A stretch of 64,000 bases of DNA from Thermococcus cleftensis (lineage in GTDB: Archaea; Methanobacteriota_B; Thermococci; Thermococcales; Thermococcaceae): NCBI RefSeq assembly GCF_000265525.1, contig NC_018015.1, positions 1,586,322 through 1,650,321 of the forward strand, given 5' to 3'. The first letter of the stretch is position 1. Every line of letters starts with the position of its first letter. This document shows, in pieces, positions 42,286-60,717 of this stretch. A model generated the notes under the pieces. The model searched no databases. It saw only the letters and a list, made by a program, of their open reading frames with translations, and was not told the DNA's origin. The translations under genes and the position numbers were made by a program.

Positions 42286-42705
42286 TCACACCCTCCTGAC
42301 TATCAGCTTGACCCCGTCCACCTCGGAGACCTCGACAACTTCACCTATTTTCAGCTTTTCGTCGTTCTCGCTGAGCGCTATCCACCTGTCTCCCTCGAGT
42401 TCGACTATGTAGTGATCCTTCCCTATCTCGACGACCTTCCCGCGCTTGCCCTTGAGCTCGAAGGTGTATTTACCCTTTCCCGCGTCCTGAACGTCCTTCT
42501 TTATGTAGCGACCCACGATGATGTACGAGATCATCGCCGCTATGAGGGCTATGACAAAGCTCTCTGTGAAGTTGACTCCGAAGCCCATGAGGAGCCCAAG
42601 GACGACCATGGCCACTCCTATCGGCGTTATGAACGCCGTGACCATCATGTCAAGGGCTATCACGAGAAGGCCAAGGATAAGGAGGGAAATAGGGAGCGTC
42701 TCCAT
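42286..42705 (-). CDS. NfeD-family membrane protein (short form)
   Basis: 139 residues: two to three membrane helices ([51 protein letters not shown]) then a C-terminal OB-like beta barrel ([20 protein letters not shown]). NfeD of this size lacks the ClpP-like protease of longer forms and usually forms a complex with a slipin. Lies 33 bases downstream of the slipin gene, almost surely co-transcribed. ATG 42705 chosen by GGTGGTG. Confidence 0.9.
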
Positions 42706-42738
42706 GATCACCACCGTCAAAAATTGAGAGAAAGGGCT

Positions 42739-43677
42739 TTAAGTCTTTTCAGGGGTGAGGGAGCTTCCCTCTTCCTGGGGAACCGCCCGTTCAGAATCTC
42801 CCTTCGGAGGCTCTGGTATCGGAGCGTCCTTCACCTTCTGGAGGATTCTCAGCAGGCCGATGAGGGCTTCCGTGTCGTACGGGACAATGAGGTTACCGTA
42901 CTTGGCCAGCTCGGGCATCTTCTCAATGTACTGAAGCGTCAGGTACTTCTCGTCCGCCATCTTGAGGGCCTCGAGAACTTTCCTTATTGCCTCCGCCTGG
43001 CCTTCGGCCACGAGTATCTGCCTCTGCTTTTCGCCCTCCGCCTTCAGTATAGCAGCTTGCTTCTGGCCCTCTGCTTCCTTGATTGCAGCCTCCTTCTTAC
43101 CCTCTGCGAGGAGTATCATCGCCCTCTTCTCCCTTTCAGCCGTCATCTGCTTGGCCATCGCGTCCTGAATGTCCTTGGGCGGGTCTATGCGCTGTATCTC
43201 CACCCTGGTTATCTTGACTCCCCAGCGGTCGGTTATCTTATCCAGTTCCTCCCTCAGCTTGGCGTTGATTATGTCCCTCCCGCTCAGCGTCTCGTCGAGC
43301 TCCATCTCACCTATAATGGCACGCAGGTTGGTCTGGGCGAGCTTGATTATCGCCATGAGGAAGTCGCTGACGTTGTAGACGGCCTTTACCGGGTCGAGTA
43401 TCTGGTAGTAAACGATGGCATCAACCGTAACGACGACGTTGTCCTTACAGATGACCTCCTGCGGCGGCACATCAACGACGTGCTCGCGCATGTCCACGAC
43501 CTTGACGCGCTCCATGAAGGGGATTATGAAGTGTATTCCCGGCTCCAGGATCCTGTTGAACTTTCCAAGGCGCTCGACGAGGCCCTTTTGGTACGGCCTT
43601 ATCACCTTCACACTCAGCAGGAGCATTATCAAAAGAAAAACCCCTATGATAACCAGGGCGGTTCCGGCAAAAGGCAT
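42739..43677 (-). CDS. Slipin/stomatin (SPFH) protein
   Basis: 312 residues. One N-terminal membrane helix (LVIIGVFLLIMLLLSVKVI), SPFH domain (GLVERLGKFNRILEPGIHFI, YYQILDPVKAVYNV, WGVKITRVEIQRIDPPKDI) and a coiled coil of Glu/Ala/Lys-rich repeats (EGKKEAAIKEAEGQKQAAI). Forms ring-like membrane scaffolds with NfeD. ATG 43677 follows GGAGGCGAT; a palindromic TATA CTTATAAG is at 43723-43730. It follows an ESCRT/kinase cluster, so it may take part in the same membrane function. Confidence 0.93.
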   Translation of the reverse strand: MPFAGTALVIIGVFLLIMLLLSVKVIRPYQKGLVERLGKFNRILEPGIHFIIPFMERVKVVDMREHVVDVPPQEVICKDNVVVTVDAIVYYQILDPVKAVYNVSDFLMAIIKLAQTNLRAIIGEMELDETLSGRDIINAKLREELDKITDRWGVKITRVEIQRIDPPKDIQDAMAKQMTAEREKRAMILLAEGKKEAAIKEAEGQKQAAILKAEGEKQRQILVAEGQAEAIRKVLEALKMADEKYLTLQYIEKMPELAKYGNLIVPYDTEALIGLLRILQKVKDAPIPEPPKGDSERAVPQEEGSSLTPEKT

Positions 43678-43758
43678 TACTATCGCCTCCGGTTGTTGTT
43701 CAAACTTTGAAGAATGGAAGTTCTTATAAGCCTTGCTGTATTCTTCTATAAGTCCCAC

Positions 43759-44901
43759 TCAACCTCCGAATTCACGGGCCCACCTTTCATAGCGTTCAAC
43801 ATATTTCTTGGTAAGTGGGGATTTTATCTTCTTAAACGCCTCCTCGAAGTCCCTCATCTCCAGTGGTCTGATCCTGAGCTCCAGCTTTCTCGGGTCACCC
43901 TCCGAGAGCACCTCGAAGTCGGCGAGCTCGGGGTTCTCCTCTTCGAGCATGTGATGTATTGCCAGGTTGCACAGGTTCGCTATCTCCCTGCCTGAATACA
44001 GGCGCTTCACGCTCTCCTCTGCTATACCATCGAGGTCAAGCCCGCTTATATCCAGACCCTTGGTGTGTATCTTCACAATCTCTTTGATAGCCTCCCTATC
44101 GGGTAATGGTACATAAATCCTCAGCGGAAACCTTGAGAGCAGTGCCTCGTCGAGGTCCCAGGGGGTGTTAGTTGATGCAAGCGTAAGAACGAATTCCTCC
44201 TCTCCCCCCTTAAAGCCATCTATCTCGGACAAGAGGGTCGCTAAGGTTCTTCGCGTTGCCTCGTGGACGCTCTCTCTTTTCAGACTGAGCGCATCGACCT
44301 CGTCGATGAAAACTATGCTGGGAGCCTTCTCCCTCGCCAGCTCATACAAAGCTGTTATCAGCTTTGATGACTCGCCGTAGTACTTGCTGAGTACCTCTGA
44401 AGCTTTGACATTGAAGAAAGTGGCCTTCAAACTCCCCGCCGCCGCGGAAGCGAGAAGGGTCTTGCCTGTTCCAGGTGGGCCGAAGAGGAGAATTCCCCTC
44501 CACGGCTTTATAGCTTCGGGCCTCTTTGCGAAAGCTATGGCCACGTTTCGGGCCAGCAATCTCTTGACATCTTCTAGCCCCCCGATGTCCCTCCACGTGA
44601 CGGTGGAACGGGCTATCAGCCCCTCCACTTGTGCCCTGTACTCATCGGTAGATGCTCCCCCCTTGAGGCTGGCCTGTGTTCCACGGGGTGGTGAGGTTTT
44701 GAGTTCCTCCGCGGCCTCCTCCCAGCGCCTTGCCTTTTCCAGGTAGAATTCTCTCCTGCCGGGCATCTTCTCCGCCAGTGTCTTCAGAATCTCCGCGCAC
44801 TTGAGGGCGTACTTTCTGGCCTCGTCTACCTTGCCCCTCGCCAGCTCCGCCTCGTACTCCTTTCTGCATTCCTCAAAAAGAGAGAGGTAGAGGGACTTCA
44901 T
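43759..44901 (-). CDS. MIT-AAA ATPase (Vps4/katanin type), module B
   Basis: 380 residues. Residues 1-70 form a three-helix MIT-like domain (ECRKEYEAELARGKVDEARK, YALKCAEILKTLAEKMP). Then AAA core: TWRDIGGLEDVKRLL, Walker A LFGPPGTGKTLLAS, pore loop KASEVLSKYYGES, Walker B IVFIDEVDAL, second region LTLASTNTPWDLDEALLSRF with the Arg finger, and a Vps4-type C-terminal helix (FEEAFKKIKSPLTKKYVERY). Vps4 remodels ESCRT-III filaments; here the ESCRT-III-like gene sits directly upstream with one base between the genes. Function is inferred from family and context. Confidence 0.88.
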   Translation of the reverse strand: MKSLYLSLFEECRKEYEAELARGKVDEARKYALKCAEILKTLAEKMPGRREFYLEKARRWEEAAEELKTSPPRGTQASLKGGASTDEYRAQVEGLIARSTVTWRDIGGLEDVKRLLARNVAIAFAKRPEAIKPWRGILLFGPPGTGKTLLASAAAGSLKATFFNVKASEVLSKYYGESSKLITALYELAREKAPSIVFIDEVDALSLKRESVHEATRRTLATLLSEIDGFKGGEEEFVLTLASTNTPWDLDEALLSRFPLRIYVPLPDREAIKEIVKIHTKGLDISGLDLDGIAEESVKRLYSGREIANLCNLAIHHMLEEENPELADFEVLSEGDPRKLELRIRPLEMRDFEEAFKKIKSPLTKKYVERYERWAREFGG

Positions 44902-44902
44902 C

Positions 44903-45469
44903 TCAACCCCTCATCATGTCCTCTATCTGCTTCAGCCTGCTCTTCGGCTCGAGATCCGAAGATGCGGAGGCCTCAAAGAGCGATGCTGCCTCTTCGATGG
45001 TCTCGGCGTCGAAATCCCCCGTCAGAATGCTTTCACTCGTCAGGTCAAGCATCGTGCCGAGCGCCTCGTCAAGACCCTCTACCTTTGTCATAGCCTTCTC
45101 AAACTCCACCTGCATCTTAGCAACGTCCTCCGCCCCTGGCCCTTCGGCTATGCTCTCAACTATGTCCCGGCTGAACTGAATGAAGTTCGCCGAAACCTTC
45201 ACCAGCTCCCTCTGAATCTCCGCCTCCTCCATGAGGAGGAGCAGCCTCTTCGCCTGCTTTATCCTTTCTTCGAGCGCCAGGTACTTCATGGCGCTCCTCC
45301 TGAGCAACGCCTCGTCCCCCAGTTTCGCCGCTTCCTTGCCCTGAAGGAATATCTTGCGCTTTAGGTTTTCGAGGTTGTTTATGTACTGCTTCAGCGCCAT
45401 CTTGGCCTTCCTCATTCGAACCTTGCGCTCAATTTCCTTCTCCTCTTTGGACTTCCAGAACTTCACCAT
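44903..45469 (-). CDS. ESCRT-III (Snf7/CdvB)-like protein
   Basis: 188 residues, almost wholly helical. A basic N-terminal helix (EKEIERKVRMRKAKMALKQY) is followed by a helical hairpin (KIFLQGKEAAKLGDEALLRR, then ALEERIKQAKRLLLLMEEAE), matching the Snf7 core, and an acidic C-terminus (EGLDEALGTMLDLTSESILT) that ends with SRLKQIEDMMRG, close to an MIT-interacting motif (MIM1 consensus LxxRLxxLR). The ATPase with the MIT domain is encoded one base downstream. No family was confirmed by a search, but the combination is strong. It would form membrane filaments. Confidence 0.72.
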   Translation of the reverse strand: MVKFWKSKEEKEIERKVRMRKAKMALKQYINNLENLKRKIFLQGKEAAKLGDEALLRRSAMKYLALEERIKQAKRLLLLMEEAEIQRELVKVSANFIQFSRDIVESIAEGPGAEDVAKMQVEFEKAMTKVEGLDEALGTMLDLTSESILTGDFDAETIEEAASLFEASASSDLEPKSRLKQIEDMMRG

Positions 45470-45510: not shown

Positions 45511-47358
45511 TCATTCAACCTCCCGCCCGGGTACCCCCTGGGAGAGCATCTTTCTTACCTCCCTCTCGATGTTCCCCTTAAGTTTCCGGTACTCCTCCAT
45601 TACCCTTCTCAGCTCCTCAAACTTCGTCCTGAAATCCCTGACCGCCCGCTCCCTGTCTTTCCCTTTGCTGCTTTTGAGAGCTTTCAATGAACTGGAAACC
45701 TCGTCGTATATCGTCCTTGCCTCCTCTGGGAGTTTAGATGGGTCTATTGAGCGGAATTCCTTCTCCAGGAGCTTTACCTCGTTCGGTTTTCTGCGAAACT
45801 TTACCGCGACGGCTACGCCGAGGATTAAAACCGCGGCGCCGATGGTGTACGGGCCGAGGGGTGACTCCCCAGCGATGCTCTGGTAGCTGGGGCTGACGGT
45901 GGCTTCACTCCCCTCTCCTGCTTCAGCGGTTTCCTCCGCCGTCTCCCGGGGGGTTAGTTCCCCTTTGATTTCCTTCGTTTCCCCGGCCCCAACTTCAACG
46001 AGTGTTTTGTAAACGTCATATCCTTCCTTCTTTATCGTTACCCAGTACGTTCCCGCCCTCACCTTGTACCCGGTTAGGGGAGTGTTTCCTATGTACGTGT
46101 CGCCGAGATATACCTCCGCCCCGCTTGGTTCAGACAGCACAGTCAGGTATCCGATGGGATCAAGATTCGCGGAAACTTCTGCAGTTTCACCTGCTCTCAC
46201 CTCTATGCTGTCCTCGTAATCTTCGTATCCTTCTATGGACAGCCTGACGGTGTAGGTTCCCGGGTCGAGCTTGAGTTCGAGGGGCGTCTTTCCAGCGGCA
46301 TCGCCGTTTATGTATACCTCGGCCCCGGAGGGGTTTGAGTTCACCTTCAAAACTCCCCACGAGGGGGTGAGCCGGGCGCTTATCCGGTACTCCTGCCCGG
46401 GTTCTACGGTTATCACCTTCTCGTACGCCTGATAATCAGTCATCGTTACCTTCACCCGGTAAATCCCCGGGCTCAGACTGTACCCCTGCACTGGCGTGGT
46501 TCCAATGTACGTTCCGTTTACGTACACCTTCGCTCCAGCGGGTTCAGAGGTTACACCGAGCGTTCCCGGCTTCGGCTTCAGAGCGGCTGAGATAACCTTC
46601 GTCTCGTTGTCCCTGACGGTGACCGTCGTCGAGTACTCAAAATAGCCGTCCAGGAGGAGCTTTATCCGGTAGGTGCCGGGGGAAAGCTCCTGGGTCAGGG
46701 GAGTTCTCCCTATGTAGTCCCCGTCCAGGTAAACCTTGGCGTTCGAGGGGGTGGATTCCACCCTGAGCTTTCCCACGATCTTGTCCAGGCTGGCGTATAT
46801 CGTCCTGTACTCCCCGGTCTCAAGCACGACGGTCGTGTTGTATGGCCGGTAGCCCTCCTTCATTATCACTACGTCGTGGCGCCCCGAGGGGAGCCTGACG
46901 GTAAGGGGCGTTTTTCCGCGGTATTCCCCGTCTATATAAACGGCCGCATCGCTGGGGTCCGAGGATACCCTCAGGGTGGCCGTGTCGCTAACCACTGTAT
47001 AGCCGTCGTCAAGGTAAAAGCGCAGCCTGACTGACACGTCTCCTGAAATCCCCATGAACACGTCGAGTGGCTCCACGTCGAAACCGTGGGAGAGATCCCC
47101 GTAAAGCCTCTCGTTTAGGAGGACGGTGTACATTACTGGACTCCCGTCCGGCAGGGCCTGAAACTCGAATATCACCTTCTCGTTGAGGAGGTCCACGTCG
47201 TAGATCTTTATCCTGTAGAGGTTCTCCCCCGTGTACGTGTTCCTCACTATCAGGGAGTCCCCGACCTTGTACCACTCTTCCATCGTGGTCTCTGAAAAAG
47301 CCCTTGGGAGAAACAGGGGTAAAAGCAGGATCAACAGCACCAGTGCGCCCTTCCTCAT
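45511..47358 (-). CDS. Membrane protein with five PEGA repeats and helical tail
   Basis: 615 residues. Signal peptide (MRKGALVLLILLLPLFLPRA), about 100 residues of beta domain, then five PEGA repeats (each like DPSDAAVYIDGEYRGKTPLT, SPSNAKVYLDGDYIGRTPLT and so on, spanning about residues 125-475). A membrane helix (IGAAVLILGVAVAVKF) leads to a cytosolic helical tail (LPEEARTIYDEVSSSLKAL to EYRKLKGNIEREVRKMLSQ). PEGA repeats sit on the cell surface and often hold S-layer or peptide contacts. Encoded just upstream of the ESCRT-III-like gene. Confidence 0.9.
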   Translation of the reverse strand: MRKGALVLLILLLPLFLPRAFSETTMEEWYKVGDSLIVRNTYTGENLYRIKIYDVDLLNEKVIFEFQALPDGSPVMYTVLLNERLYGDLSHGFDVEPLDVFMGISGDVSVRLRFYLDDGYTVVSDTATLRVSSDPSDAAVYIDGEYRGKTPLTVRLPSGRHDVVIMKEGYRPYNTTVVLETGEYRTIYASLDKIVGKLRVESTPSNAKVYLDGDYIGRTPLTQELSPGTYRIKLLLDGYFEYSTTVTVRDNETKVISAALKPKPGTLGVTSEPAGAKVYVNGTYIGTTPVQGYSLSPGIYRVKVTMTDYQAYEKVITVEPGQEYRISARLTPSWGVLKVNSNPSGAEVYINGDAAGKTPLELKLDPGTYTVRLSIEGYEDYEDSIEVRAGETAEVSANLDPIGYLTVLSEPSGAEVYLGDTYIGNTPLTGYKVRAGTYWVTIKKEGYDVYKTLVEVGAGETKEIKGELTPRETAEETAEAGEGSEATVSPSYQSIAGESPLGPYTIGAAVLILGVAVAVKFRRKPNEVKLLEKEFRSIDPSKLPEEARTIYDEVSSSLKALKSSKGKDRERAVRDFRTKFEELRRVMEEYRKLKGNIEREVRKMLSQGVPGREVE

Positions 47359-47380
47359 GACCATCACCGCGGTGTTGGGG

Positions 47381-48049
47381 CTAGTGTCCGCCGAGGTACG
47401 AATCGAAGGTCAGAACGCGAACCCCTCCCGTCCTGGTGACCCGGGCCTCGACCTCCCTTCCGATCACGGTCTCGATGCCCCTCCTCTTTGCCAGCTCAAC
47501 GAGGACGTCCGTCACAACGGTGGGCACTATCAGGACCTTCCCTCCAATGGGCTGGGTGTTGAGCTTCATCACCATCGAAACCACGCTGTCCGTTGCCACC
47601 GGTCTGAGCGACTCATCGAGCAGCACAGCGACGTGATTCCTGCGGGCGTGGTCTATGTATCTCAGAACCTGGGTTTTCCCATCGTTTCCACCTTTTTGCC
47701 GTGTGTTCCCGATCGAGGAATGTGGAGCAGGCACTGCCACTTCCCTGAGGCCTGGAGTTTCCAGGAGCTCTGATATTGCGCCCGTGACGGTTTTTTTCAG
47801 TGCTATGTACTCTCCGACCAGAACCTCAAGCCGCGAGATCTCCACCTCGATGCTTTCGAGGGCCTTTGAGGCTCCTTCCTTGTCGCCCCTCCTGATGAGC
47901 TTCCCGGCGTGTTGAATGAGTGCCAACGCCCCTCTGAGACCCTCTTTGCCCTCCTCTGGAACCCTGTCCTTCAGAGAATCGAGGCGCCCCCTCAGCTCCC
48001 GGAGCCTTTTCTCTTCCTTTGACGGTAAAATGGAGGAAAAAATGCCCAT
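47381..48049 (-). CDS. Soluble protein with shared helical domain and alpha/beta C-terminus
   Basis: 222 residues. N-terminal about 110 residues are helical (EEKRLRELRGRLDSLKDRVP to GEYIALKKTVTGAISELLE), similar to the cytosolic tails of the PEGA proteins nearby. The C-terminal half (HVAVLLDESLRPVATDSVV, VLIVPTVVTDVLVELAKRRG) is alpha/beta and loosely Toprim- or Rossmann-like. No membrane segment. I cannot name a family; a soluble adaptor role is inferred from the shared tail. Lies between the PEGA gene and the transmembrane PP2C gene. Confidence 0.7.
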   Translation of the reverse strand: MGIFSSILPSKEEKRLRELRGRLDSLKDRVPEEGKEGLRGALALIQHAGKLIRRGDKEGASKALESIEVEISRLEVLVGEYIALKKTVTGAISELLETPGLREVAVPAPHSSIGNTRQKGGNDGKTQVLRYIDHARRNHVAVLLDESLRPVATDSVVSMVMKLNTQPIGGKVLIVPTVVTDVLVELAKRRGIETVIGREVEARVTRTGGVRVLTFDSYLGGH

Positions 48050-48060
48050 ACCGGCACCCC

Positions 48061-50790
48061 TCAGTGGCGGTAGAGGACCACCGTTATGTTGTCGTCGCTT
48101 CCGTAACCGTAGGCCTTTTCCACGAGTATCTTCACGGCCTCCTCGAGGGACGGGGCGGCGAGGACGGTTCTGGCGATCTCGCTATCCGGCAGAGCATCGC
48201 TGAGGCCGTCGGAGCACAGGAGCAGGTGGTCACCCTTCTGCAGGCTCACCTTCTTTATGTCGTTCCTGTCTATGTTTATGGTCTGGGAAATGCCGAGGGC
48301 CTTGGTTATGACGTTCTTCTGCGGGTGCTTCCTGGCCTCCTCGGGCGTTATCTCGCCCTTGTCTATGAGCTCCTGGACGAGCGAGTGATCCTTGGTCAGC
48401 CTCTTTATGCTTCCGTCTGGCCGTATCAGGTACGTCCTGCTGTCACCTATGTTGGCGATGGTGGCCTCGTTGCCCCTGACTATGGCTGCCGTCAGCGTGG
48501 TCCCCATGTTGTACCACTCCGGGTGCGCCGGGTCGTGTCCCATCTGGTAGATTACCTCGTTGGCTCTCTGAATGGCCTTCCTGAACACCTCCTCGGGATC
48601 CTCGAACTTGTTGTTCTCCAGGGTCTCCTTGAGTATCTCAATCGCCTTCCTGCTCGCAACCTCGCCGGCGAGGTGTCCTCCCATGCCATCGGCAACAGCC
48701 AGGAGTATGTTGCCCCCTATCTTCTCGACAATGTATGCGTCCTCGTTGTTCTGCCTGCGTCCTATGTAGCTCTTGGCCGCCACGTGCTTGGTCACGTCCA
48801 CGCCGAGGGTCTGCTTGTAGGGTGCTATTCTGAGCTTGAGCCTGTCGTACTCGGACACGAACTTCTCCTTCAGGACGATGGGCCTCCTGTAGTCGCCCCT
48901 TTCGAACGCGGCCCGGGCTTCGCTCACGAGCCTTCCCATCTCGTCCAACTTCTTTTTAACCCCTTTGTCCTCCAGAAGGTTGAGGGAGGCGAGCTCGCTC
49001 CGGAGGCTTTCGATGATATCCTCCATCGTTTCCACGGCCTCCCGGGCCTCGTCCACGCGCTTCTTGTCCTGGTACTTGGTGTATCCAATGTATCCTCCGT
49101 AGCCCAGGCCAGCCAGGAGGAGCAACGCAATCACCGCCAGGAGAACCGTATTCCAAGTGTAGCTGCTCTCCGCGTCATCAATCGACTTGCTGGCGTCGTT
49201 CAGCAGGCTCTCCACCTGGGCCACGCTCGCAACGATGTAACTCTCGGCCCCACCGGAAGCCGACAGGGCCGAGTTGAACTCGTTCACGGCGCCTAGGAGG
49301 TCCTCCGCCCCCTGGGCGTTCTGGGCTTTGAGGTACGCTCTTATGATCATCAGGGCTGCATTGACCTTGTTCAGCTCCTCCTCCGCTCGCTTGAGCTTGT
49401 CGTCCGCGCTTATGATTGATATGGCTGGCTTCTTCTTTCTGGCCTCCTGGAGTCTTTTCTGAACCTGCTCGTACCTCTTCTCCAGGTCATTGAGATTCTC
49501 CTCGGTCATGTTGATTTCCTTAACGCCGAGCCTTGCCATCATCTGCTCCAGGATCCTCTCCCTGATGACCTTGAAATCGCCGTTGTTGATCACTTCAACG
49601 GCCAGCGAGATGGCGTTATCGTAATCGCCCCCTGAGAGCGCTGTCTTGGCCTTCTTGAGCTTGGATTCGAGGGGTTTGATGATTACGTCGTAGTAATCCT
49701 GTGGAAGTGCGTTGTACTTGACCGTTATGTTCTTAACTGTCTCGTCAGCCTTTCCAACGAGGCACTCCGCGAGGGGCTTTTTGACGTTTTCCAGGGTGCC
49801 ACTGGCGGATTTCAGGTGTGAAACCGCCTCGGGCATCCTGTTTCCGGACAGGTTCTCCTTCGCTATCGCCAGCTGCTGATTGACGGTTTTTAGAGCCTCC
49901 TCAAGGGTTTTCTGGTCGGTCGTTCCGGTGCAGTACTTCTTGAAATAGTCATCGTACTCGCGGTATTTTTCGCTGAGGGCGTCGAGCTTGGCCTGGATTA
50001 TTTCCCTCATGCGGCTCATGACCTCACTTATCGTCGCGTTTGCCTCGGAAACGTTCCCGGCCTCCAGCTGGGCTCTCGCCTTCTCGATCTCGCTCTCGAG
50101 GTCGGTTATGGTCTTATTATCCACGTTGAGGAACTCCCTGTTGTCCTTGATTGCCCGGAGCGCGCTTTCGGCGGAGTCAATCTTCCCCTCCACCTCTTCC
50201 AGCGGGACCAGGCACTTTTCGGTCTCTCCCTTTGCAGTGTCCAGCTTTTTCCTCGCCTCCAGGAGTGTGGTTATGGCATCTGCGAATTTTGAGTGATCCT
50301 TGCTACCTTCATTTATCAGCTCTCTCGCCCGATCAAGGAGCGATTTTACCCCATTGAGGTCGCTTTTGATCTCCTCGGCCGCTGTTTTATCGCTGCACGC
50401 TTTGGCGTCCTTTGAAAGCTGGGTGTACTCTGTATTGAGGTCCGTCGTGATGTTCGTCAGCAGTTCCGCGAGGGGGTTCCAGAAGCCGTTTATCAGGGTC
50501 GCGTTGGCGCCCTCTGAATCCCCGTTGTTCAGCTGTTCTTTTGCAGTGGTTATGCTCTGGTTCAGCTTTTTGATCTCCTCCGGGGGCACGTCCAGGGCCT
50601 CTTTGTTCTCGTTCAGGGTTTTCAGAGTCTGGTTGGCAAGGTCTATGTCCTTGTTAATCCCTTCCACATCGCTTGAAGCTTGCTGGGTTGAATCCTGGGT
50701 CGTCTGTCCGGTGTCCGCGGCAGTCACAGGCACGCTGAGCACCATAATGATGAGGAGGAGTATTGAAACAACACGCCGCAGGCTAACCAT
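48061..50790 (-). CDS. Transmembrane PP2C phosphatase with large external helical region
   Basis: 909 residues. Signal peptide (MVSLRRVVSILLLIIMVLSV), about 500 residues of external alpha helices (many heptad-like segments, for example YVDNKTITDLESEIEKARAQ-type), a membrane helix (VLLAVIALLLLAGLGYGGYI), a cytosolic helical domain (SEYDRLKLRIAPYKQ), and a C-terminal PP2C domain from about residue 670: NNEDAYIVEK, VADGMGGHLAGEVAS, NIGDSRTYLI, CSDGLSDAL and SDDNITVVL, all metal Asp residues present. Dephosphorylates Ser/Thr; the external part likely acts as sensor. Next to a kinase gene. Confidence 0.92.
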   Translation of the reverse strand: MVSLRRVVSILLLIIMVLSVPVTAADTGQTTQDSTQQASSDVEGINKDIDLANQTLKTLNENKEALDVPPEEIKKLNQSITTAKEQLNNGDSEGANATLINGFWNPLAELLTNITTDLNTEYTQLSKDAKACSDKTAAEEIKSDLNGVKSLLDRARELINEGSKDHSKFADAITTLLEARKKLDTAKGETEKCLVPLEEVEGKIDSAESALRAIKDNREFLNVDNKTITDLESEIEKARAQLEAGNVSEANATISEVMSRMREIIQAKLDALSEKYREYDDYFKKYCTGTTDQKTLEEALKTVNQQLAIAKENLSGNRMPEAVSHLKSASGTLENVKKPLAECLVGKADETVKNITVKYNALPQDYYDVIIKPLESKLKKAKTALSGGDYDNAISLAVEVINNGDFKVIRERILEQMMARLGVKEINMTEENLNDLEKRYEQVQKRLQEARKKKPAISIISADDKLKRAEEELNKVNAALMIIRAYLKAQNAQGAEDLLGAVNEFNSALSASGGAESYIVASVAQVESLLNDASKSIDDAESSYTWNTVLLAVIALLLLAGLGYGGYIGYTKYQDKKRVDEAREAVETMEDIIESLRSELASLNLLEDKGVKKKLDEMGRLVSEARAAFERGDYRRPIVLKEKFVSEYDRLKLRIAPYKQTLGVDVTKHVAAKSYIGRRQNNEDAYIVEKIGGNILLAVADGMGGHLAGEVASRKAIEILKETLENNKFEDPEEVFRKAIQRANEVIYQMGHDPAHPEWYNMGTTLTAAIVRGNEATIANIGDSRTYLIRPDGSIKRLTKDHSLVQELIDKGEITPEEARKHPQKNVITKALGISQTINIDRNDIKKVSLQKGDHLLLCSDGLSDALPDSEIARTVLAAPSLEEAVKILVEKAYGYGSDDNITVVLYRH

Positions 50791-50799
50791 CTCAATCCC

Positions 50800-52767
50800 T
50801 CACATCCATTTTTTCAGCACGGTTTCCACCTTCCTGAAGGTGTCCTCTGTTGGTCGGGCGTTTTCGGAGGCCATGAGTGATACCTGGGCGTGCAGGTCCC
50901 TCAGCTCCGGGTGGCCGGTTTCGTGGTAGAGCGCGTCGAGATCGGCGGCGAGCTTCGCGAGCTCCGATGAGACTTCCTGGGCGAAGCCGTCCACTATCGC
51001 CTTGATGCGCAGGTAGGCGTTCTCCGCGAGAATCTTCGTCCTCTCCCTTGAGCTGACGCTGTCCTTGATATGGACTCCCATGCGTATCAAAACTTCCTTG
51101 ATGTCGTTCTGCAGCTCCCTTACCGTCTGGTAGCGCTTCTCCGGGTCCTTTTCGAGCATCTTCATCACTATCTCATCAAAGACCCTCGCCTCAGGGTTGA
51201 GGTATGAGGGAGGCTCGGGGGTCTTGTTCAGTATGTTGTTGATGATGGTTCCCTCGTACTCGGCCGTGAAGGGGTGCTTGCCGGTCAGTATCTCGTAGAA
51301 GACGATGCCGAGCTGGAAGATGTCGCTCCTGTGGTCGATGTGCTCAGGGTCCTTTATCTGCTCGGGGGAGGAGTAGAGTATGGTCTTGTGCCTGACGAGA
51401 GAGGATTTCCTGGTGGCCTTCGACGCAAGCCTCGCGAGACCCCAGTCTCCGAGTTTAACCCTCTCCAGGCTTCCGAATATGAGTATGTTGCTCGGCTTTA
51501 TGTCCCTGTGGTATATCTTCTGGGAGTGGGCGTGGTGGAGGGCACGGCCGATCTCGAATATTACCCTTCCGGCCACCGATGGACTTACCGGTTTCTTGAC
51601 TTCCTCCAGGTTACTGCTGGCCAGCTCCATCTCGAGGAAGCCGAGCCTCGGGTCGGCGCGGTGGACCTTGACGATGTTCTCGTGGTCGAGCTTTTGGGCC
51701 GCCGCGAACTCGCGCATGAACGAGGAGGTGGATTCTTTGTCCAAGTATTTGAGCACCTTGAGGGCTACCTTGTGTCCCTGTGGGTTCTTGGCCTCGTAAA
51801 CGTATGAGAACGCACCCTCTCCGATGGTCCGTATTATCCGATACCTCTCCTTTATCTGCTCCAGCCTCGTCTCAAAGTTCACCGACAAGTCGAAGGTCTC
51901 CTCCTCGACGACTTCCTCCTGGAGAACGAAGCTGTTCTTGTCCGGAATCTGGAGGCGCCAGCCCTTGGGGACCTCTCCGGTGTAGAGGAGTTCGGTGATT
52001 CCGTAGAGGTTGCTGTCGCAGGCCTTTATCAGCTCGTTTATCATTGCGACTTCCTCTACCAGGTCGTGCTTCTTCGCCATCTCCAGGAGGTTCTCCAGGA
52101 CCTTCTTCGCGCTCTCGAGGCTCTTCTTAGCGGAGAACCAGTCCTCCTTCCTGTACATCTCGGCGGCCTCTATCATCATGTCCGCTACCGCCTGGAGCTG
52201 GAGCATTATTATCTTCCTGTGGGCAACTATGAGGGCATCGAACCTGTCGTCCTCCATCGGAACCTCAACGGTTTCGAGCTCCCTTATCGCCTCCCAGAGC
52301 TCCTGCTCGGTCTGGGCGTTCTTTATTTTCTGGTATATCCTCCTGAAGTTGGCTATCTTCCTGAGGTTTTCAGTGGTCTCTATGGTGTTCCTGAGCTTCT
52401 GGATCAGCTCCTCCCGGTCGCCCTCCTCCACCTCCAGAACCGTGAGGGCCTGGCGGTACTTCTCCAGCGACTCCGTGAACTTTGATATGGCCTCCTCAAA
52501 GTTCCTCGCCTTGAGCAGCTTTTCTCCATCGTGCCTCAGCCTGAGGGCGTTGCTGAGGAGGAAATCCCTATCTGGAAGGGCCGCTATAAGGGCCCTCTTA
52601 ACCATTTCAAGCGCGGTTCCGGTGTCATCGGTGCTCAACGCGTTTAGAGCGTTCTGAAGGTAATCCTTAGCCTGCTCGATGTTCGAGCCGGGTAATCCGA
52701 GCGTCATATAATTTGAGATTTTCGGGAGATATGACTCGATCTCCCTCAGGTCAGCTATCCTGCCCAA
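50800..52767 (-). CDS. Hanks-type Ser/Thr kinase with helical N-terminus
   Basis: 655 residues. Residues 1-300 are helical and TPR-like (LRHDGEKLLKARNFEEAISK, FTESLEKYRQ); the kinase domain spans about 308-562: GEGAFSYVY glycine loop, VALKVLK lysine, HRDIKPSN, DWG for DFG (LGDWGLAR), and SSPEQI for APE. The C-terminal about 85 residues are a helical tail as in the other kinases. No membrane helix. TTG 52767 is chosen since GGGGTG lies six bases upstream and a TATA box is at 52803-52811; GTG 52797 is the alternative. Confidence 0.9.
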   Translation of the reverse strand: MGRIADLREIESYLPKISNYMTLGLPGSNIEQAKDYLQNALNALSTDDTGTALEMVKRALIAALPDRDFLLSNALRLRHDGEKLLKARNFEEAISKFTESLEKYRQALTVLEVEEGDREELIQKLRNTIETTENLRKIANFRRIYQKIKNAQTEQELWEAIRELETVEVPMEDDRFDALIVAHRKIIMLQLQAVADMMIEAAEMYRKEDWFSAKKSLESAKKVLENLLEMAKKHDLVEEVAMINELIKACDSNLYGITELLYTGEVPKGWRLQIPDKNSFVLQEEVVEEETFDLSVNFETRLEQIKERYRIIRTIGEGAFSYVYEAKNPQGHKVALKVLKYLDKESTSSFMREFAAAQKLDHENIVKVHRADPRLGFLEMELASSNLEEVKKPVSPSVAGRVIFEIGRALHHAHSQKIYHRDIKPSNILIFGSLERVKLGDWGLARLASKATRKSSLVRHKTILYSSPEQIKDPEHIDHRSDIFQLGIVFYEILTGKHPFTAEYEGTIINNILNKTPEPPSYLNPEARVFDEIVMKMLEKDPEKRYQTVRELQNDIKEVLIRMGVHIKDSVSSRERTKILAENAYLRIKAIVDGFAQEVSSELAKLAADLDALYHETGHPELRDLHAQVSLMASENARPTEDTFRKVETVLKKWM

Positions 52768-52802
52768 CCCCAACACCCCCAACGCGGGGCATAACACCCG
52801 CT

Positions 52803-52856: not shown

Positions 52857-55106
52857 TCACTCTTCATTGCCTCCCTCCCCCTCTGAAGGCCCTCCTGCGG
52901 TCGGCTGGTTCAGCAGGCTCATGATGTCCCTGCTGATCCTCTCTTTCATGTTCCGGTACTGGCCGCTGAGCTCTATGACGCGCTGGACCTCCGCGGCAAT
53001 CTCCTTCCTGAGTCTTTCGAGGCCCTTCCTGTCTCTCCTGTGGTATGCCTCTTCCACGGCCTTTCTCTTCCCCTCCAGGACCTCCAGTATCTCACCTGCC
53101 TCCTCCGGGACGTTTTTCCTCTTCGCTGAATCTATCATTGCGAGCAGTTCCTTGTAGCTTGTCCTGAAGCGGTATCCCCTGTACGCCTTTACCAGAAGGA
53201 GCAGGACTATTAGAACGGCTATGCCAGCCGCCGCCCTGACTCCGTAGTAAACCGGATCCACCTGCATGTTCGGTAGCAGCTCCCTGGTCTCCCCGGGGCC
53301 CAGCGAGACCGTGGTGGTGTAGTCCTTCCTTCCCTCCTTTTTGAGTACCACCTCGTAGCTACCGGGCTGGATAGAGATCGATGTTGGTGCGGTTCCGTAG
53401 TAGGCCCCGTCCACGTAAACTTCTGCCCCTGAGGGTTCGTTTATCTCGAGCTTCGCTGGACAGGGCTCCAGGCGGGCCGTCACCGCCACGGGTGTGGGTG
53501 AGTTTATTGACACCTCTTCCCTGTAATCCCCGCAGAATCCGTTGGCCCTCACCGTGACGTTATGGTCCCCGGCGGGAATCGTGTAGTTTAGAAGGGGCGT
53601 TTTGCCCACGGGTATGCCGTCTATGACCACCTGGGCGCCATCGACGTTGGAGTAGACGTTTATCGTGCCGTTGGCCAGGGGCAGGGAAATGTACTCTTTG
53701 ACGACATCGCCCGGGGAAACGCTCACCTCAACGACCTTCGTGTGGTAGTACTCCTTTGCGACCTTTACCGCGTAGGTTCCCGGGAGAACTGCGAAGGCTA
53801 CTGGAGTTTTTCCTATCCTGGTGTACTCCCCGTTCTCCATCAGGTACACCTGGGCATCGCTGGGGTCGGTCAGTATCTGGATCACTCCCGGAACCCTGAA
53901 CAGTGCAACCGTGCCGTCCTTGGTTCCAACCGCCAGGTAGTTCCCGTCCTGAGAGAGCGCCACGGCGTAGACTGGAGAACCCACGTTGCCCTTCCAGAGG
54001 AGGTAGCCGTTCTCGTTGAAAACGTAGACGTTTCCTCCCGTGTCGCCCACTGCTATGATGTTGCCTGAGGGGGTGATATCAACGTCGAAGGCAGGCGCGT
54101 CCAGCTTGTACCTCCACACGAACTCCCCCGAGAGCCGGTAGAGGTAGGCGTAGTAGTTCCCGGAGCCGGTCCACTTCCCGCTGGGATCGAGGTGGAGCCC
54201 GGTCACGGCGGCGTAGTACTTCTCCGATATTGCCGTGCCCACGACCGCATCATCGAACTCCCTGGTGGACTTCAGGAACGTCCCGGAGAAGAGGAAGAGC
54301 TTGCTGTACTCGTTGTCGTCCCTCCTGTAGAACCAGGGGGAGTGCGACACCGCCAGGTAGTTTCCGTAGGCATCGACCTCAGGCAGATCAACGCCCACGA
54401 GGTTGGTGGCTATTCTGGAGCCGGTGTAGCTGAAACGTATGATCTTCCCCTCACTACCAACGTATATCCTGTCCTGGCCCGCGGACACCGAAGAGAAGAA
54501 CTCCTTGGTCTGCGAGGTGTAGGTCCAGAGCACGTGCTTCCTGTCGTCCAGGTAGATTATCTTCCCGTACTCTGGAGAACCGTCCCTGTTCGTGTCGTAG
54601 CCAACCGCGGCCACGATGTTCTTACCGTCCTTGGCTATGTCGAGGGACGCTATGAAGCCTCCAGTCAGGTAGTCCCATATCGGCCTTCCGTCCCAGCTGA
54701 AGTAGTATATCCTTCCGTTCTTGCCTCCGGCAACCACGTACTGGCCGTTCGGCCCCACCTTGATCGCGTAGACCTCGGTGTTCACTGTGTACGTCCATTC
54801 CGGGGTTATCTGCGGTGCAGAGGCCTCCGCGTGAGCCGTTCCCAGGAGCGATATCAAAACGATCCCGATGATGAACGCCGTCCTCCACTTCATGGATACC
54901 ACCCGTTCACACCCTCTCATTACCGGTGCCTCCGGCTTCATAGTGGCGAAGACATTAAGCAATATAGTCCCCACCATGGCCAGGGCCAGAAAAGTTGCAT
55001 GGGACGGGGCTATTTGTATCAACGTCATAAGTATGGCCCACTGGTTATCTGCGATAAATACAACAACTGCCAAAATGGAGTAGAGCCATTGCAGTTGATT
55101 CTTCAT
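52857..55106 (-). CDS. Beta-propeller and PEGA membrane protein
   Basis: 749 residues from ATG 55106 (GGGGGAG and a TATA at 55170-55162 fit). The first 71 residues carry two hydrophobic helices; a second in-frame ATG 54893 with GGGTGG begins a clean signal-peptide form (MKWRTAFIIGIVLISLLGTA) of 678 residues. Then a WD40/YVTN-like propeller (repeat type DGNYLAVGTKDGTVALFRV), three PEGA repeats (DPSDAQVYLMENGEYTRIG first), a membrane helix (AGIAVLIVLLLLVKAY) and a cytosolic helical tail (VPEEAGEILEVLEGKRKAV, GQYRNMKERISRDIMSLLNQ). Probably a surface sensor; the start is unresolved. Confidence 0.85.
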   Translation of the reverse strand: MKNQLQWLYSILAVVVFIADNQWAILMTLIQIAPSHATFLALAMVGTILLNVFATMKPEAPVMRGCERVVSMKWRTAFIIGIVLISLLGTAHAEASAPQITPEWTYTVNTEVYAIKVGPNGQYVVAGGKNGRIYYFSWDGRPIWDYLTGGFIASLDIAKDGKNIVAAVGYDTNRDGSPEYGKIIYLDDRKHVLWTYTSQTKEFFSSVSAGQDRIYVGSEGKIIRFSYTGSRIATNLVGVDLPEVDAYGNYLAVSHSPWFYRRDDNEYSKLFLFSGTFLKSTREFDDAVVGTAISEKYYAAVTGLHLDPSGKWTGSGNYYAYLYRLSGEFVWRYKLDAPAFDVDITPSGNIIAVGDTGGNVYVFNENGYLLWKGNVGSPVYAVALSQDGNYLAVGTKDGTVALFRVPGVIQILTDPSDAQVYLMENGEYTRIGKTPVAFAVLPGTYAVKVAKEYYHTKVVEVSVSPGDVVKEYISLPLANGTINVYSNVDGAQVVIDGIPVGKTPLLNYTIPAGDHNVTVRANGFCGDYREEVSINSPTPVAVTARLEPCPAKLEINEPSGAEVYVDGAYYGTAPTSISIQPGSYEVVLKKEGRKDYTTTVSLGPGETRELLPNMQVDPVYYGVRAAAGIAVLIVLLLLVKAYRGYRFRTSYKELLAMIDSAKRKNVPEEAGEILEVLEGKRKAVEEAYHRRDRKGLERLRKEIAAEVQRVIELSGQYRNMKERISRDIMSLLNQPTAGGPSEGEGGNEE

Positions 55107-55270: not shown

Positions 55271-56017
55271 TTACCACCTCCAAACCATGACCGTCACGTT
55301 GTCCCTTGTGACCGGCAGGGCCTCTTCAATCAGCTTTTTCGCTATCTCCTCCGCGCTCCTGCCCTGCGAGGCTATCCCCACTATCCTGCCCTCGGCCACG
55401 TAGTCGTGCAGTCCGTCGGAGCTGAGCAGAAGAACGTCCCCGTGCCTCAGCTTCCATTCGTAGAAATCAACCTCAAACTTGGCCCCGAGGGCCCTCGTTA
55501 TGATGTTCCGCATCGGGTGCCTCCTCGCTTCATCAGGGGTTATCTCACCTTTATCAACGAGCTCCTGGACGAGTGAGTGGTCCTTCGTCCTGGTGATGAT
55601 TTTTCCATTCCTTATCAGGTACGCTCTGCTGTCCCCAGTGTTGGCTATGAGAACCCTTCCTGGGGAAACGAGGGCGGACACAAGGGTTGTCCCCATTCCC
55701 TTCCTCTCTCCTGTGGCGTTCTCCAATATTCTGGAGTGTGCCAGCTCGTACGCTTTCCTGAGCGTTATCAAGGTGAGATACCCTGGAGCGCCAGGTTCGT
55801 ACTCCTGGAGAAGCGTCTCTTTCAGAACCTCAATTGCAATCCTGGAAGCCACCTCGCCGGAACTATGACCCCCAACCCCATCGGCCACCGCCAGGAGGTA
55901 TGAGTCAGGCAGTTTCAGGATTAAGAAGTTATCCTCGTTGTTGTATCTTTCCCCAACGTGGCTTATGGCGGCCGCAAATGGGAGAAAAAGAACATCGGTA
56001 TCTCCATTTACCTCCAT
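55271..56017 (-). CDS. PP2C-family protein phosphatase (soluble)
   Basis: 248 residues, a stand-alone PP2C. Motifs: YNNEDNFLIL, VADGVGGHSSGEVAS, MGTTLVSALV, ANTGDSRAYLIR, SSDGLHDYV and RDNVTVMVW, with all metal Asp present. Close to the domain of the transmembrane phosphatase at 48061 (both have SLVQELVDKGEITPDEAR-like segments). The ATG overlaps the kinase stop (TGATG at 56017-56019), so translation is coupled and the phosphatase probably opposes that kinase. Confidence 0.93.
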   Translation of the reverse strand: MEVNGDTDVLFLPFAAAISHVGERYNNEDNFLILKLPDSYLLAVADGVGGHSSGEVASRIAIEVLKETLLQEYEPGAPGYLTLITLRKAYELAHSRILENATGERKGMGTTLVSALVSPGRVLIANTGDSRAYLIRNGKIITRTKDHSLVQELVDKGEITPDEARRHPMRNIITRALGAKFEVDFYEWKLRHGDVLLLSSDGLHDYVAEGRIVGIASQGRSAEEIAKKLIEEALPVTRDNVTVMVWRW

Positions 56018-57432
56018 CACCCCTCCACCTCCCTTTGCACCTTGTGGAGTAGGATTTTCAGCTCGTCCAGCGTGGACTTGCTTATCGGCACACTCTCCCG
56101 CATCATCAGCTCGAACTGGCCTATCGCGCCCTCGAGCTCCTCCCTATGGTTCCTTGAGAATGCCTTCAAATCTTCGAGCGCGTTGATCAGGCCAGCCTTG
56201 TCGTTGAGCTGAGCGTGGAGTAAAGCGTTCCTGCTCAGCTGTTCCACCAGCTGGCGCATAAGCTTCTTAAGCTCCCTGCTGTCGATTGTCATGCTCATCG
56301 TGGTTTTGGTCTTCTCGATTTCTTTCGCCAGCTTATTTCTCTCCCCGTCGAGCTTCTTCATCAGCTCAAGATCACGGAGGAACTCCTCAACGCTCTGGTA
56401 GCGCTCCTCCTTCCTCTTCGCGAGGAGCTTCTCGAAGATGCCGTCGTATTTAGCCAGAGCCTTGTTGAAGTGGCTCGGCGGTTTGGGTTTTACTGCCGGG
56501 TTTATCACCTTGGCCATGACCACCGCTGGAGAAGTTCCCTGATATGGAAGTTTCCCTGTGAGGAGCTCGTAGAATATCAGGCCGAGCTGGTAGATGTCTG
56601 TTCTGGCATCGGTGTGGCCGTAGGTCTCGTCATCGAGCTGTTCCGGGGCCGCGTAGAGGAGGGTTAATCCCTTCGTGGTTGTCGCGGTCGTTGATATGGC
56701 ACCGACTTTAGCCAATCCCCAGTCAGTTATCTTCGGGGTTAAATTGCTCGTTATCAGGACGTTCTGGGGCTTCAGATCCCTATGGAAGACCTGTTTTGCG
56801 TGGGCGTGCTTGAGGCCCTCGGCAATGCCCCTGATGAAGTGGAGCGCCTTCTCCTCATCGACGGGCTTCGGGTACTTTCCTAGGTCCCTTATGACCTCGC
56901 CGTTAAGCTGGATTCCGTCAACGAATTCGATCTCGAGGTAGGGTAGAGGCTCGTCGAAGGTGTTGTAGAGCTTGACGATGTTCGGGTGATCAAGGAGGCG
57001 CCAGGCCCTGACCTCCTTGAGGAAGAACTTCTTGGCCTTCTCGTCCAGACGGGAGACCTTGAGGGCCATGACTTTGCCGTCCGATTTTCTCCTCACTTTG
57101 AACACTTTTGCAAAACCGCCCTCGCCGAGGAACTCAAGGGGCTCGTACTTGTCGAGGAGCTCGGGCGGGAAGCCGGGGAGTATACTGCGGATGTAGAGTT
57201 GATTTGTTTTCCGATTTTTCTTGTGTTCCGTTCTGGTTTTAGGAATGACATTCATCTTTTTAGATGCCCAGTACCCAGCTATTCCTATGGGATTCAGTGC
57301 TAAGAAACTCCACACAATCTTACGTAAGCGCCCTATGTCGTCTCGCCACATTATGTCTCTTAACGTTAACGCCATGGACAGCACTATTATCGTGCTTAAG
57401 ACAATGTTGATGACAACACCAGTAACACTCAA
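56017..57432 (-). CDS. Hanks-type kinase with N-terminal membrane helices
   Basis: 471 residues. Two N-terminal membrane helices (VVINIVLSTIIVLSMAL and KIVWSFLALNPIGIAGYW), then the kinase core at about 94-355: GEGGFAKVF, MALKVSR, HRDLKPQN, DWG (TDWGLAK), and AAPEQL; the activation segment STTATTTKGLT is rich in Thr. A helical tail follows (ALLHAQLNDKAGLINALEDL). TTG 57432 is preferred as GGGAGGAGG lies eight bases upstream; TTG 57483 extends the frame but lacks a ribosome site. Followed by the coupled PP2C gene. Confidence 0.85.
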   Translation of the reverse strand: MSVTGVVINIVLSTIIVLSMALTLRDIMWRDDIGRLRKIVWSFLALNPIGIAGYWASKKMNVIPKTRTEHKKNRKTNQLYIRSILPGFPPELLDKYEPLEFLGEGGFAKVFKVRRKSDGKVMALKVSRLDEKAKKFFLKEVRAWRLLDHPNIVKLYNTFDEPLPYLEIEFVDGIQLNGEVIRDLGKYPKPVDEEKALHFIRGIAEGLKHAHAKQVFHRDLKPQNVLITSNLTPKITDWGLAKVGAISTTATTTKGLTLLYAAPEQLDDETYGHTDARTDIYQLGLIFYELLTGKLPYQGTSPAVVMAKVINPAVKPKPPSHFNKALAKYDGIFEKLLAKRKEERYQSVEEFLRDLELMKKLDGERNKLAKEIEKTKTTMSMTIDSRELKKLMRQLVEQLSRNALLHAQLNDKAGLINALEDLKAFSRNHREELEGAIGQFELMMRESVPISKSTLDELKILLHKVQREVEG

Positions 57433-57472
57433 AATGTATACCTCCTCCCAATGTGTATGGTCATTGAACCAT

Positions 57473-58669
57473 TCATCCCCCAAACTCCTCCGCCCACTTC
57501 TCGTACCGCTCGATCTCCTTCCTCGTCAGCGGGGACTTGATCCTCTTGAAGGCCTCCTCGAAGTCCCTCATCTCAAGCGGCCTGGTCTTCAGGGAGCGCC
57601 TCCTGAGCTTCTCATACGGCAGTTCCGCCAGCTTGTGAAGGTCCCTGTTCTCCTCGCGTATCATGTGCCATATCGCCTCCTGACAGAGGTTCTTGAGGTC
57701 CCTTCCGGAGTAGAGCCTCCTGACACTCTCCTCCGCTATCGCGTCGAGGTCGAGCCTGCTTATGTCCAGTCCGCGGGTGTTGATCTTGATTATCTCCTTT
57801 GTGGCCTTCTCGTCAGGCAGGGGGACGTAGATCCTGCGCGGGAACCTCGACAGAACTGCCTCGTCAAGGTCCCAGGGGGTGTTGGTCGCCGCCAAAGTCA
57901 AGACCAGTATGTCGCTCTTCTTGTCCTGGAAGCCGTCCAGCTCCGTGAGGAGCGTCGAGAGCATCCTCCTGCTGGCCTCGCTCTGGTCACCGGAGCGCCT
58001 GGTCGTCAACGCGTCTATCTCGTCCATGAAGACTATGCTCGGGGCCTTTTCCCTGGCAACCTCGTAGAGGGCCGAGATTATCTTGGTGGACTCTCCGAAG
58101 TACTTGCTGAGGACGTTGCTGGCCTTAACGCTGAAGAAGGTTGCGTTCAGGCTTCCGGCCGCGGCGCTCGCGAGTAGCGTTTTGCCGGTTCCCGGCGGGC
58201 CGAAGAGCAGGATACCCTTCCAGGGCTGAATCGATTCGGGCCTCTGCAGGGCAGAGATGACGACCGTTTCCATCATCAGCATCTTGACCTCTTCCAGCCC
58301 GCCTATGTCATTCCACTTGACCTTGGACTTCGTTATCAGGTTCTCGACGTATTGCTTGAACTTGTCCTCCTCGCCGTCCTCCGTCCCGGCCTCCCTTCCG
58401 CTTCCACCTTCCTTCATCGGCCTGTGCTTCCTCTTTACTCCGTAGCGGCCGGCCTCAACGTCCCGTGCTATGGTTTCCCACTTCTTGGCCTTCTGCAGGT
58501 AGCTCTCGCGGTTGAACTCGTCGTACTTCGCGAGCTGCTTCAGTATCCTGGAGCATTCGAGAGCCTTTTTTCTGGCGGTTTCCTTGTCTCCCTTCTTTAT
58601 CGCTTCCTCAAACTCTTTCTTGGCCTTCCTAAAGGCTGACATCAGGGGACCGGAAAGATCGACGGACAT
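57473..58669 (-). CDS. MIT-AAA ATPase (Vps4/katanin type), module A
   Basis: 398 residues. MIT-like N-terminus (SAFRKAKKEFEEAIKKGDKE, CSRILKQLAKYDEFNRESYL) and a charged linker. AAA core: DIGGLEEVKMLMMETV, Walker A LFGPPGTGKTLLAS, pore KASNVLSKYFGES, Walker B VFMDEIDAL, LAATNTPWDLDEAVLSRFPR, and end helix FEEAFKRIKSPLTRKEIERY. Closely related to the 43759 ATPase, but no ESCRT-III-like gene is next to this copy in the window. ATG 58669 (GGTGGTG upstream). Probably works with the flanking kinases. Confidence 0.88.
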   Translation of the reverse strand: MSVDLSGPLMSAFRKAKKEFEEAIKKGDKETARKKALECSRILKQLAKYDEFNRESYLQKAKKWETIARDVEAGRYGVKRKHRPMKEGGSGREAGTEDGEEDKFKQYVENLITKSKVKWNDIGGLEEVKMLMMETVVISALQRPESIQPWKGILLFGPPGTGKTLLASAAAGSLNATFFSVKASNVLSKYFGESTKIISALYEVAREKAPSIVFMDEIDALTTRRSGDQSEASRRMLSTLLTELDGFQDKKSDILVLTLAATNTPWDLDEAVLSRFPRRIYVPLPDEKATKEIIKINTRGLDISRLDLDAIAEESVRRLYSGRDLKNLCQEAIWHMIREENRDLHKLAELPYEKLRRRSLKTRPLEMRDFEEAFKRIKSPLTRKEIERYEKWAEEFGG

Positions 58670-58772
58670 TTCAATCACCACCTGTTTTTGAATTGTGCCA
58701 CATCAACCCCGAAAAACAAAACCTCCCGGGGGTTGCGAATTTTCAAACGTGGACTGTTAGGTGACTCCAACC

Positions 58773-60695: not shown

Positions 60696-60717
60696 ACGAT
60701 TCACCCCCTCAGAGCAG

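Follow-up and report, generated by a model that had tools for sequence, protein, structure and literature searches.

A third ESCRT-III family protein next to a second Vps4-type ATPase in the Main-clade ESCRT locus of Thermococcus cleftensis

Background

A short helical protein is encoded one base ahead of an MIT-AAA ATPase in Thermococcus cleftensis, a thermophilic euryarchaeon that bears FtsZ: does it belong to the ESCRT-III family, and if so, is it part of a system already known or of a separate one? The question was raised by a preliminary description of the DNA analysed here, a stretch of 64,000 nucleotides (the window), which had read the pair as ESCRT-III and a Vps4-like ATPase and had suggested a separate euryarchaeal branch. 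As a discovery, the presence of ESCRT-III and Vps4 in Euryarchaeota comes too late: such loci have already been published for Thermococcales and Methanococcales (PMC4390880; main text of PMC10936438), and Makarova 2010/2015/2024 place the Thermococcales ESCRT in a 'Main' clade (the 2010 work as cited in PMC10936438). A 2021 review (PMC10117752) credits Thermococcales with Vps4 homologues only and no ESCRT-III, and a 2024 EV study (PMC10927574), which found no ArvA GTPase there, calls the Thermococcus mechanism undetermined; how vesicles bud in Thermococcus is thus still a matter to be settled.

Results and discussion

A real and strongly conserved gene

44903-45469, minus strand: E3_X, ESCRT-III family protein, 188 aa (Snf7, AF2/Foldseek, dN/dS)

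E3_X is the name given here to the 188-aa product of this T. cleftensis ORF, which starts with ATG and has a GGAGG motif a little 5' of the start. The ORF is a real gene and not a chance reading frame: it is under strong purifying selection (dN/dS of 0.01-0.10 for pairs of E3_X, 0.011 being the lowest), full-length relatives with 77-96% identity occur in 30 of 94 Thermococcales genomes, and within its own genome no protein matches the Snf7 profile better, Rad50 and ESCRT-III-B ranking lower. A cross-genus comparison identifies E3_X as the most conserved member of the operon: between genomes G000 and G092 its identity is 84%, compared to 75% for the two other ESCRT-IIIs, 73% for the main Vps4, 52% for the winged-helix protein and 44% for the arCOG08177-like protein. 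The remaining 64 of the 94 Thermococcales genomes possess no E3_X, and the system is therefore dispensable, which weighs against the reading of E3_X developed below. A search of NCBIfam returned no meaningful family for E3_X. A viral or mobile origin was also considered and rejected, as no relative was found among viral contigs.

A second Vps4-type ATPase directly downstream

43759-44901, minus strand: Vps4_2, second Vps4-type MIT-AAA ATPase, 380 aa (AAA 5.8e-38, Vps4_C 9.7e-6)
44659-44901, minus strand: MIT domain of Vps4_2 (AF2 bundle, Foldseek to 2v6y)

The arrangement first noticed, a short helical protein one base before an MIT-AAA ATPase, was borne out: the 188-aa ORF at 44903-45469 (minus strand) is followed by an ORF running from 44901 to 43759, which begins 1 base past the end of E3_X, and a GAGGGG resembling a ribosome-binding site lies within the 3' end of the E3_X gene, ahead of Vps4_2. 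Judged by sequence and predicted fold, Vps4_2 is an ATPase of the Vps4/CdvC type, with an MIT fold, an AAA domain and a Vps4_C domain. Its Walker A/B and sensor 1 motifs are intact, and it shares 61% identity with the main Vps4 (57473-58681). The N-terminus is barely recognised by the Pfam MIT profile (E 0.2), and is modelled by AF2 as a three-helix bundle (pLDDT 86.5), for which the MIT domain of Sulfolobus solfataricus Vps4 (2v6y) is the nearest structure and top Foldseek match (TM 0.76/0.81, rmsd 2.0). MIT domains from yeast and other sources rank just after it; the domain is so small that the Foldseek E values are poor.

The surrounding locus

42286-42720, minus strand: NfeD-like protein, SPFH partner (NfeD 2.6e-10)
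42739-43758, minus strand: SPFH/stomatin-type protein (Band_7 5.8e-47)
45511-47367, minus strand: PEGA-repeat membrane protein, helical tail on the cytosolic side (PEGA 2.7e-99; signal and TM segments from sequence)
47381-48049, minus strand: 222-aa protein (N-terminal helical domain, BLASTP E 4.6e-6 to the tail of the PEGA protein at 52857-55106)
48061-50790, minus strand: membrane-anchored PP2C phosphatase (PP2C_2 2.7e-21; Stp1 family 2.3e-76)
50800-52797, minus strand: Ser/Thr kinase with N-terminal MIT- or TPR-like helices (Pkinase 1.5e-43; MIT 0.002, below cut-off)
52857-55106, minus strand: membrane protein with beta-propeller and PEGA ectodomain (PEGA 5e-39, WD40 1.4e-13)
55271-56020, minus strand: PP2C phosphatase (PP2C 4.8e-17; by synteny, compact operons have its homologue between main Vps4 and E3_X)
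56017-57483, minus strand: Ser/Thr kinase of the ESCRT locus (Pkinase 3e-47)
57473-58681, minus strand: Main-clade Vps4 (AAA 3e-40, Vps4_C 5.9e-8; tree)
58773-60746, minus strand: Ser/Thr kinase of the ESCRT locus (same-locus homologues elsewhere; kinase motifs in translation)
60718-62310, minus strand: membrane-anchored Ser/Thr kinase of the ESCRT locus (Pkinase 7.6e-46)
62310-63920, minus strand: propeller/PEGA membrane protein, 5' end past the window edge
L011:5801-6415 and L011:6412-7011: two other ESCRT-III genes
L011:7054-8934: 626-aa arCOG09748-like winged-helix protein (described architecture)
L011:8903-9427: 174-aa arCOG08177-like protein (described architecture)

A canonical Main-clade locus adjoins the E3_X region, its upstream part lying beyond the window (L011:5801-9427). 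The T. cleftensis locus is a Main-clade euryarchaeal ESCRT locus, and E3_X is its third ESCRT-III. The Main-clade system of PMC10936438, among whose members that paper names the Thermococcales, likewise combines genes for Vps4, ESCRT-III, arCOG09748-like and arCOG08177-like proteins, a Ser/Thr kinase and a phosphatase at one locus. Our arCOG09748 and arCOG08177 candidates, assigned by described architecture rather than by arCOG profiles, are syntenic at about 20 other Thermococcales loci. The main text of PMC10936438 has neither a third, separately placed ESCRT-III nor a paired second Vps4, although its supplementary tables may list E3_X; compared with that main text, the third ESCRT-III and its pairing with a likely private Vps4_2 look unreported, whereas the machinery overall is known already. 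Of the separate euryarchaeal branch suggested earlier, one part survives: sequence searches, in a phylum set made up almost only of Thermococci, showed the family in Thermococcales alone. E3_X is, however, a paralogue that belongs to the Main-clade system already known, not a system apart.

The genes between the two Vps4 genes encode PP2C phosphatases, kinases, propeller/PEGA membrane proteins and the 222-aa protein. A helical domain is common to the cytosolic tails of the two PEGA proteins at 45511-47367 and 52857-55106 (pairwise E 6e-5) and to the N-terminus of the 222-aa protein. The C-terminal half of the 222-aa protein has a weak match (E 2.3e-5) in the C-terminal region of archaeal DnaG. 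Residues about 76-150 of the kinase at 50800-52797 weakly resemble MIT (E 0.002) or TPR, with inconsistent scores among its relatives; such a region could carry this kinase to ESCRT-III filaments.

The SPFH-NfeD pair (42286-43758) flanks the ESCRT locus in several genomes, and the SPFH gene lies 3' of Vps4_2 in G000, G022, G033, G044 and G029. An SPFH gene also closes the ESCRT locus in G017 and G042, both without E3_X.

Family and predicted fold of E3_X

Each test of the family membership of E3_X is indecisive alone; jointly, and together with the neighbouring genes, the sequence profiles and the structural model argue convincingly for ESCRT-III. The Snf7 profile search proposed in the preliminary description gave matches throughout the family and fell below the curated threshold for the single protein: Pfam Snf7 (PF03357) is matched by all 26 aligned E3_X relatives (best E 5e-6), which are close to one another, so that these matches are not independent tests, but T. 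cleftensis E3_X itself reaches only E 0.0077 and 16.4 bits against a gathering score of 27.3. Sub-threshold matches of this kind would also suit a protein of the kinase-phosphatase locus that is a helical adaptor or a coiled coil, BAR-like or structural, and that resembles ESCRT-III without belonging to it and is a client of the ATPase. We regard such an adaptor as improbable, given that Snf7 is matched by every one of the 26 members and that the partner ATPase combines an MIT fold with a Vps4_C domain.

Comparison of E3_X with the two other ESCRT-IIIs of the locus by hhalign gave a weak result because the profiles are too shallow (Neff about 1.3-1.7), and an ORF-background test was used instead, in which each profile was searched against a background of about 1,765 ORFs taken from 31 loci. 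Self-matches aside, the E3_X profile found ESCRT-III-B first (20 matches, best E 0.0013; nearest non-ESCRT ORF 1.3), and the ESCRT-III-B profile recovered E3_X from the same background (18 matches, best 0.012; nearest unrelated ORF 3.2). This specific mutual recognition likewise speaks against an adaptor. Between ESCRT-III-A and ESCRT-III-B the relationship is plain (1e-22 to 1e-25). Among PDB sequences, the E3_X profile turned up no ESCRT-III chain, and its sole match was RanBP2 (E 0.25).

The AF2 model of E3_X (pLDDT 82) is all-helical, with the helix order of ESCRT-III and a long helical hairpin (helices at residues 8-50, 53-107, 113-150, 155-170 and 175-187). The structural comparison with CHMP or CdvB that had been proposed came out in favour of ESCRT-III by rank and less clearly by significance: the best Foldseek matches in the PDB are CdvB and CdvB2 of S. 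islandicus, with a probability of 0.99-1.00, but the same matches have E values of only 0.016-0.1 and a TM of about 0.4. CdvB and CdvB2 occupy most of the top ranks, which argues against an adaptor; BAR domains and designed helical bundles follow close behind, little below CdvB, and would be consistent with one. The basic first helix and acidic C-terminus described earlier were confirmed by net charges of +10 (residues 1-50) and -6 (residues 151-188), and the N-terminal half is the most basic among the three ESCRT-IIIs of the locus.

Thus the preliminary reading of an ESCRT-III family protein beside an MIT-AAA (Vps4) ATPase in a euryarchaeon with FtsZ holds, by profiles, predicted fold and the three FtsZ/tubulin-family genes of the T. 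cleftensis genome. Among known systems, the predicted fold of E3_X is nearest to CdvB and CdvB2 of the Sulfolobus CdvB/CdvB1/CdvB2 and CdvC set. In contrast to Sulfolobus Cdv, E3_X has no winged-helix tail and its tail is MIM1-like and not MIM2, while T. cleftensis also has FtsZ, and no CdvA was noticed at the E3_X locus. Eukaryotic CHMP/Snf7 proteins are alike in helix order, basic helix 1, acidic C-terminal part and, as far as sequence can suggest, a C-terminal helix of the MIT-interacting type; similarity to them in sequence is at profile level only, and E3_X does not follow the MIM1 consensus.

The C-terminal helix

44906-44944, minus strand: C-terminal MIM1-like amphipathic helix of E3_X, residues 176-188, KSRLKQIEDMMRG (motif in relatives)

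The end of E3_X had been called MIM1-like, and this is true of its core rather than of the complete motif. All 26 aligned relatives end in a helix of the form P-x-x-(x)-[RK]-L-x-x-I-E-x-x-M-[RK], which contains the MIM1 core RLxx(L/I), but none of the 26 fits MIM1 in its strict form, the helix being without the upstream Leu of MIM1 and without the Lys/Arg that follows the core. A relative in G089, outside the 26, deviates from the terminal-helix motif. The motif is absent in ESCRT-III-A and ESCRT-III-B, so that E3_X alone of the three has it. In the CdvB proteins of Euryarchaeota, Frohn et al. 2022 (PMC8970359) detected no motif for protein interaction; the E3_X helix is therefore a concrete candidate, but no more than that. 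On its sequence, we consider it a candidate MIT-interacting motif that is MIM1-like and not a canonical MIM1.

Variation of the locus and the Vps4 tree

The position of E3_X takes several forms. The compact form, recognised by spacing in 13 genomes, has E3_X closing the main operon in the order arCOG08177-like protein, winged-helix protein, ESCRT-III-A, ESCRT-III-B, kinase, main Vps4, PP2C, E3_X. The intermediate form has an expanded main locus with E3_X at its end, and in the expanded form, to which T. cleftensis belongs, Vps4_2 directly follows E3_X (12 of 12 loci in 11 genomes); besides these 11 genomes, G050 has, where a contig ends, a fragment that resembles Vps4_2. In a few genomes the main locus occurs without E3_X. 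Altogether, 38 genomes have a main or second Vps4; 30 of them carry E3_X, and none of the other 56 genomes does. These counts do not represent independent events, as the genomes are related.

In the Vps4 tree, Vps4_2 and the 'solo' Vps4 of Thermococcales share one branch (support 100/100) apart from the main Vps4, with long branches that make the exact order of Vps4_2 and solo copies uncertain. An identity of Vps4_2 with the published 'solo' Vps4 was rejected: the solo copies form their own subclade and occupy other loci without ESCRT-III. No ESCRT-III-like ORF was found at the solo loci (L106-L114), whereas Vps4_2 is accompanied by E3_X at each complete locus.

Mechanism and cellular role

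From the gene, its family and fold, the MIT fold of its neighbour, their adjacency and their conservation, we think it probable that E3_X is a third Main-clade ESCRT-III of Thermococcales, which works as ESCRT-III proteins do and is recycled by Vps4. By analogy with the family, the basic first helix would bind the inner face of the cytoplasmic membrane, and the long hairpin would open and polymerise into filaments that bend or constrict the membrane. The MIT domain of Vps4 would then hold the C-terminal amphipathic helix, and ATP-driven threading would strip subunits from the filament. The single Vps4 of compact genomes would serve E3_X, and Vps4_2 is its likely dedicated recycler in T. cleftensis and ten other genomes. 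The kinases, PP2C phosphatases, propeller/PEGA proteins and SPFH-NfeD genes around E3_X suggest a regulated assembly: the neighbouring kinases and phosphatases may control it by phosphorylation, and the propeller/PEGA membrane proteins and SPFH-NfeD may tie it to membrane signals.

The cellular role would be cargo sorting or the remodelling of vesicles and membranes rather than core cytokinesis. Sorting of phosphorylated proteins has been proposed for the Main clade in the main text of PMC10936438. The composition of the system resembles CdvB-CdvC, and it could on that ground act in cytokinesis beside FtsZ, as ESCRT-III does in TACK archaea; however, with three FtsZ/tubulin-family genes in the genome and with E3_X absent from two-thirds of Thermococcales, division is unlikely as its main role, and a cytokinetic function seems to us poorly plausible, the more so as the main text of PMC10936438 argues that the ESCRT of FtsZ archaea is not for division. 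Least plausible of all, and very improbable, is an E3_X of the bacterial-type PspA/Vipp1 branch that repairs membrane stress with the SPFH-NfeD pair, since, in spite of the adjoining SPFH and NfeD genes and the SPFH-PspA links noted in the main text of PMC10936438, the PspA_IM30 profile matched neither E3_X nor its relatives at E <= 1 while Snf7 matched all members, the partner is an MIT-Vps4, the locus is Main-clade ESCRT, and many genomes with E3_X are without an adjoining SPFH gene.

The ESCRT-III reading of E3_X admits a more specific version, which we offer tentatively and doubt more than we believe: a specialised Thermococcus module, in which Vps4_2 would be coupled to E3_X under kinase/phosphatase and propeller-PEGA control for vesicle budding or cargo sorting in FtsZ-dividing cells, and in which the solo Vps4 of Pyrococcus-like genera would be a relative of Vps4_2 that has lost its ESCRT-III. 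Against the proposed working of E3_X stands an unpublished result cited in PMC10117752: in T. kodakarensis, EV production reportedly did not change when Vps4 homologues were disrupted singly, a result that would need reinterpretation with redundancy considered. The locus encodes three ESCRT-III proteins and two enzymes of the Vps4 type, and some species of Thermococcus are genetically tractable, so that the function of ESCRT outside cell division can be tested by deletion. Unusually conserved and with a likely private Vps4, E3_X is a good experimental handle on non-division ESCRT.

As a minor observation, two ESCRT-III-B ORFs contain one in-frame TGA each (L101 in G024, near position 3875; G062:C98:45495-46094), which may reflect a sequencing error, decay or misplacement of the start.
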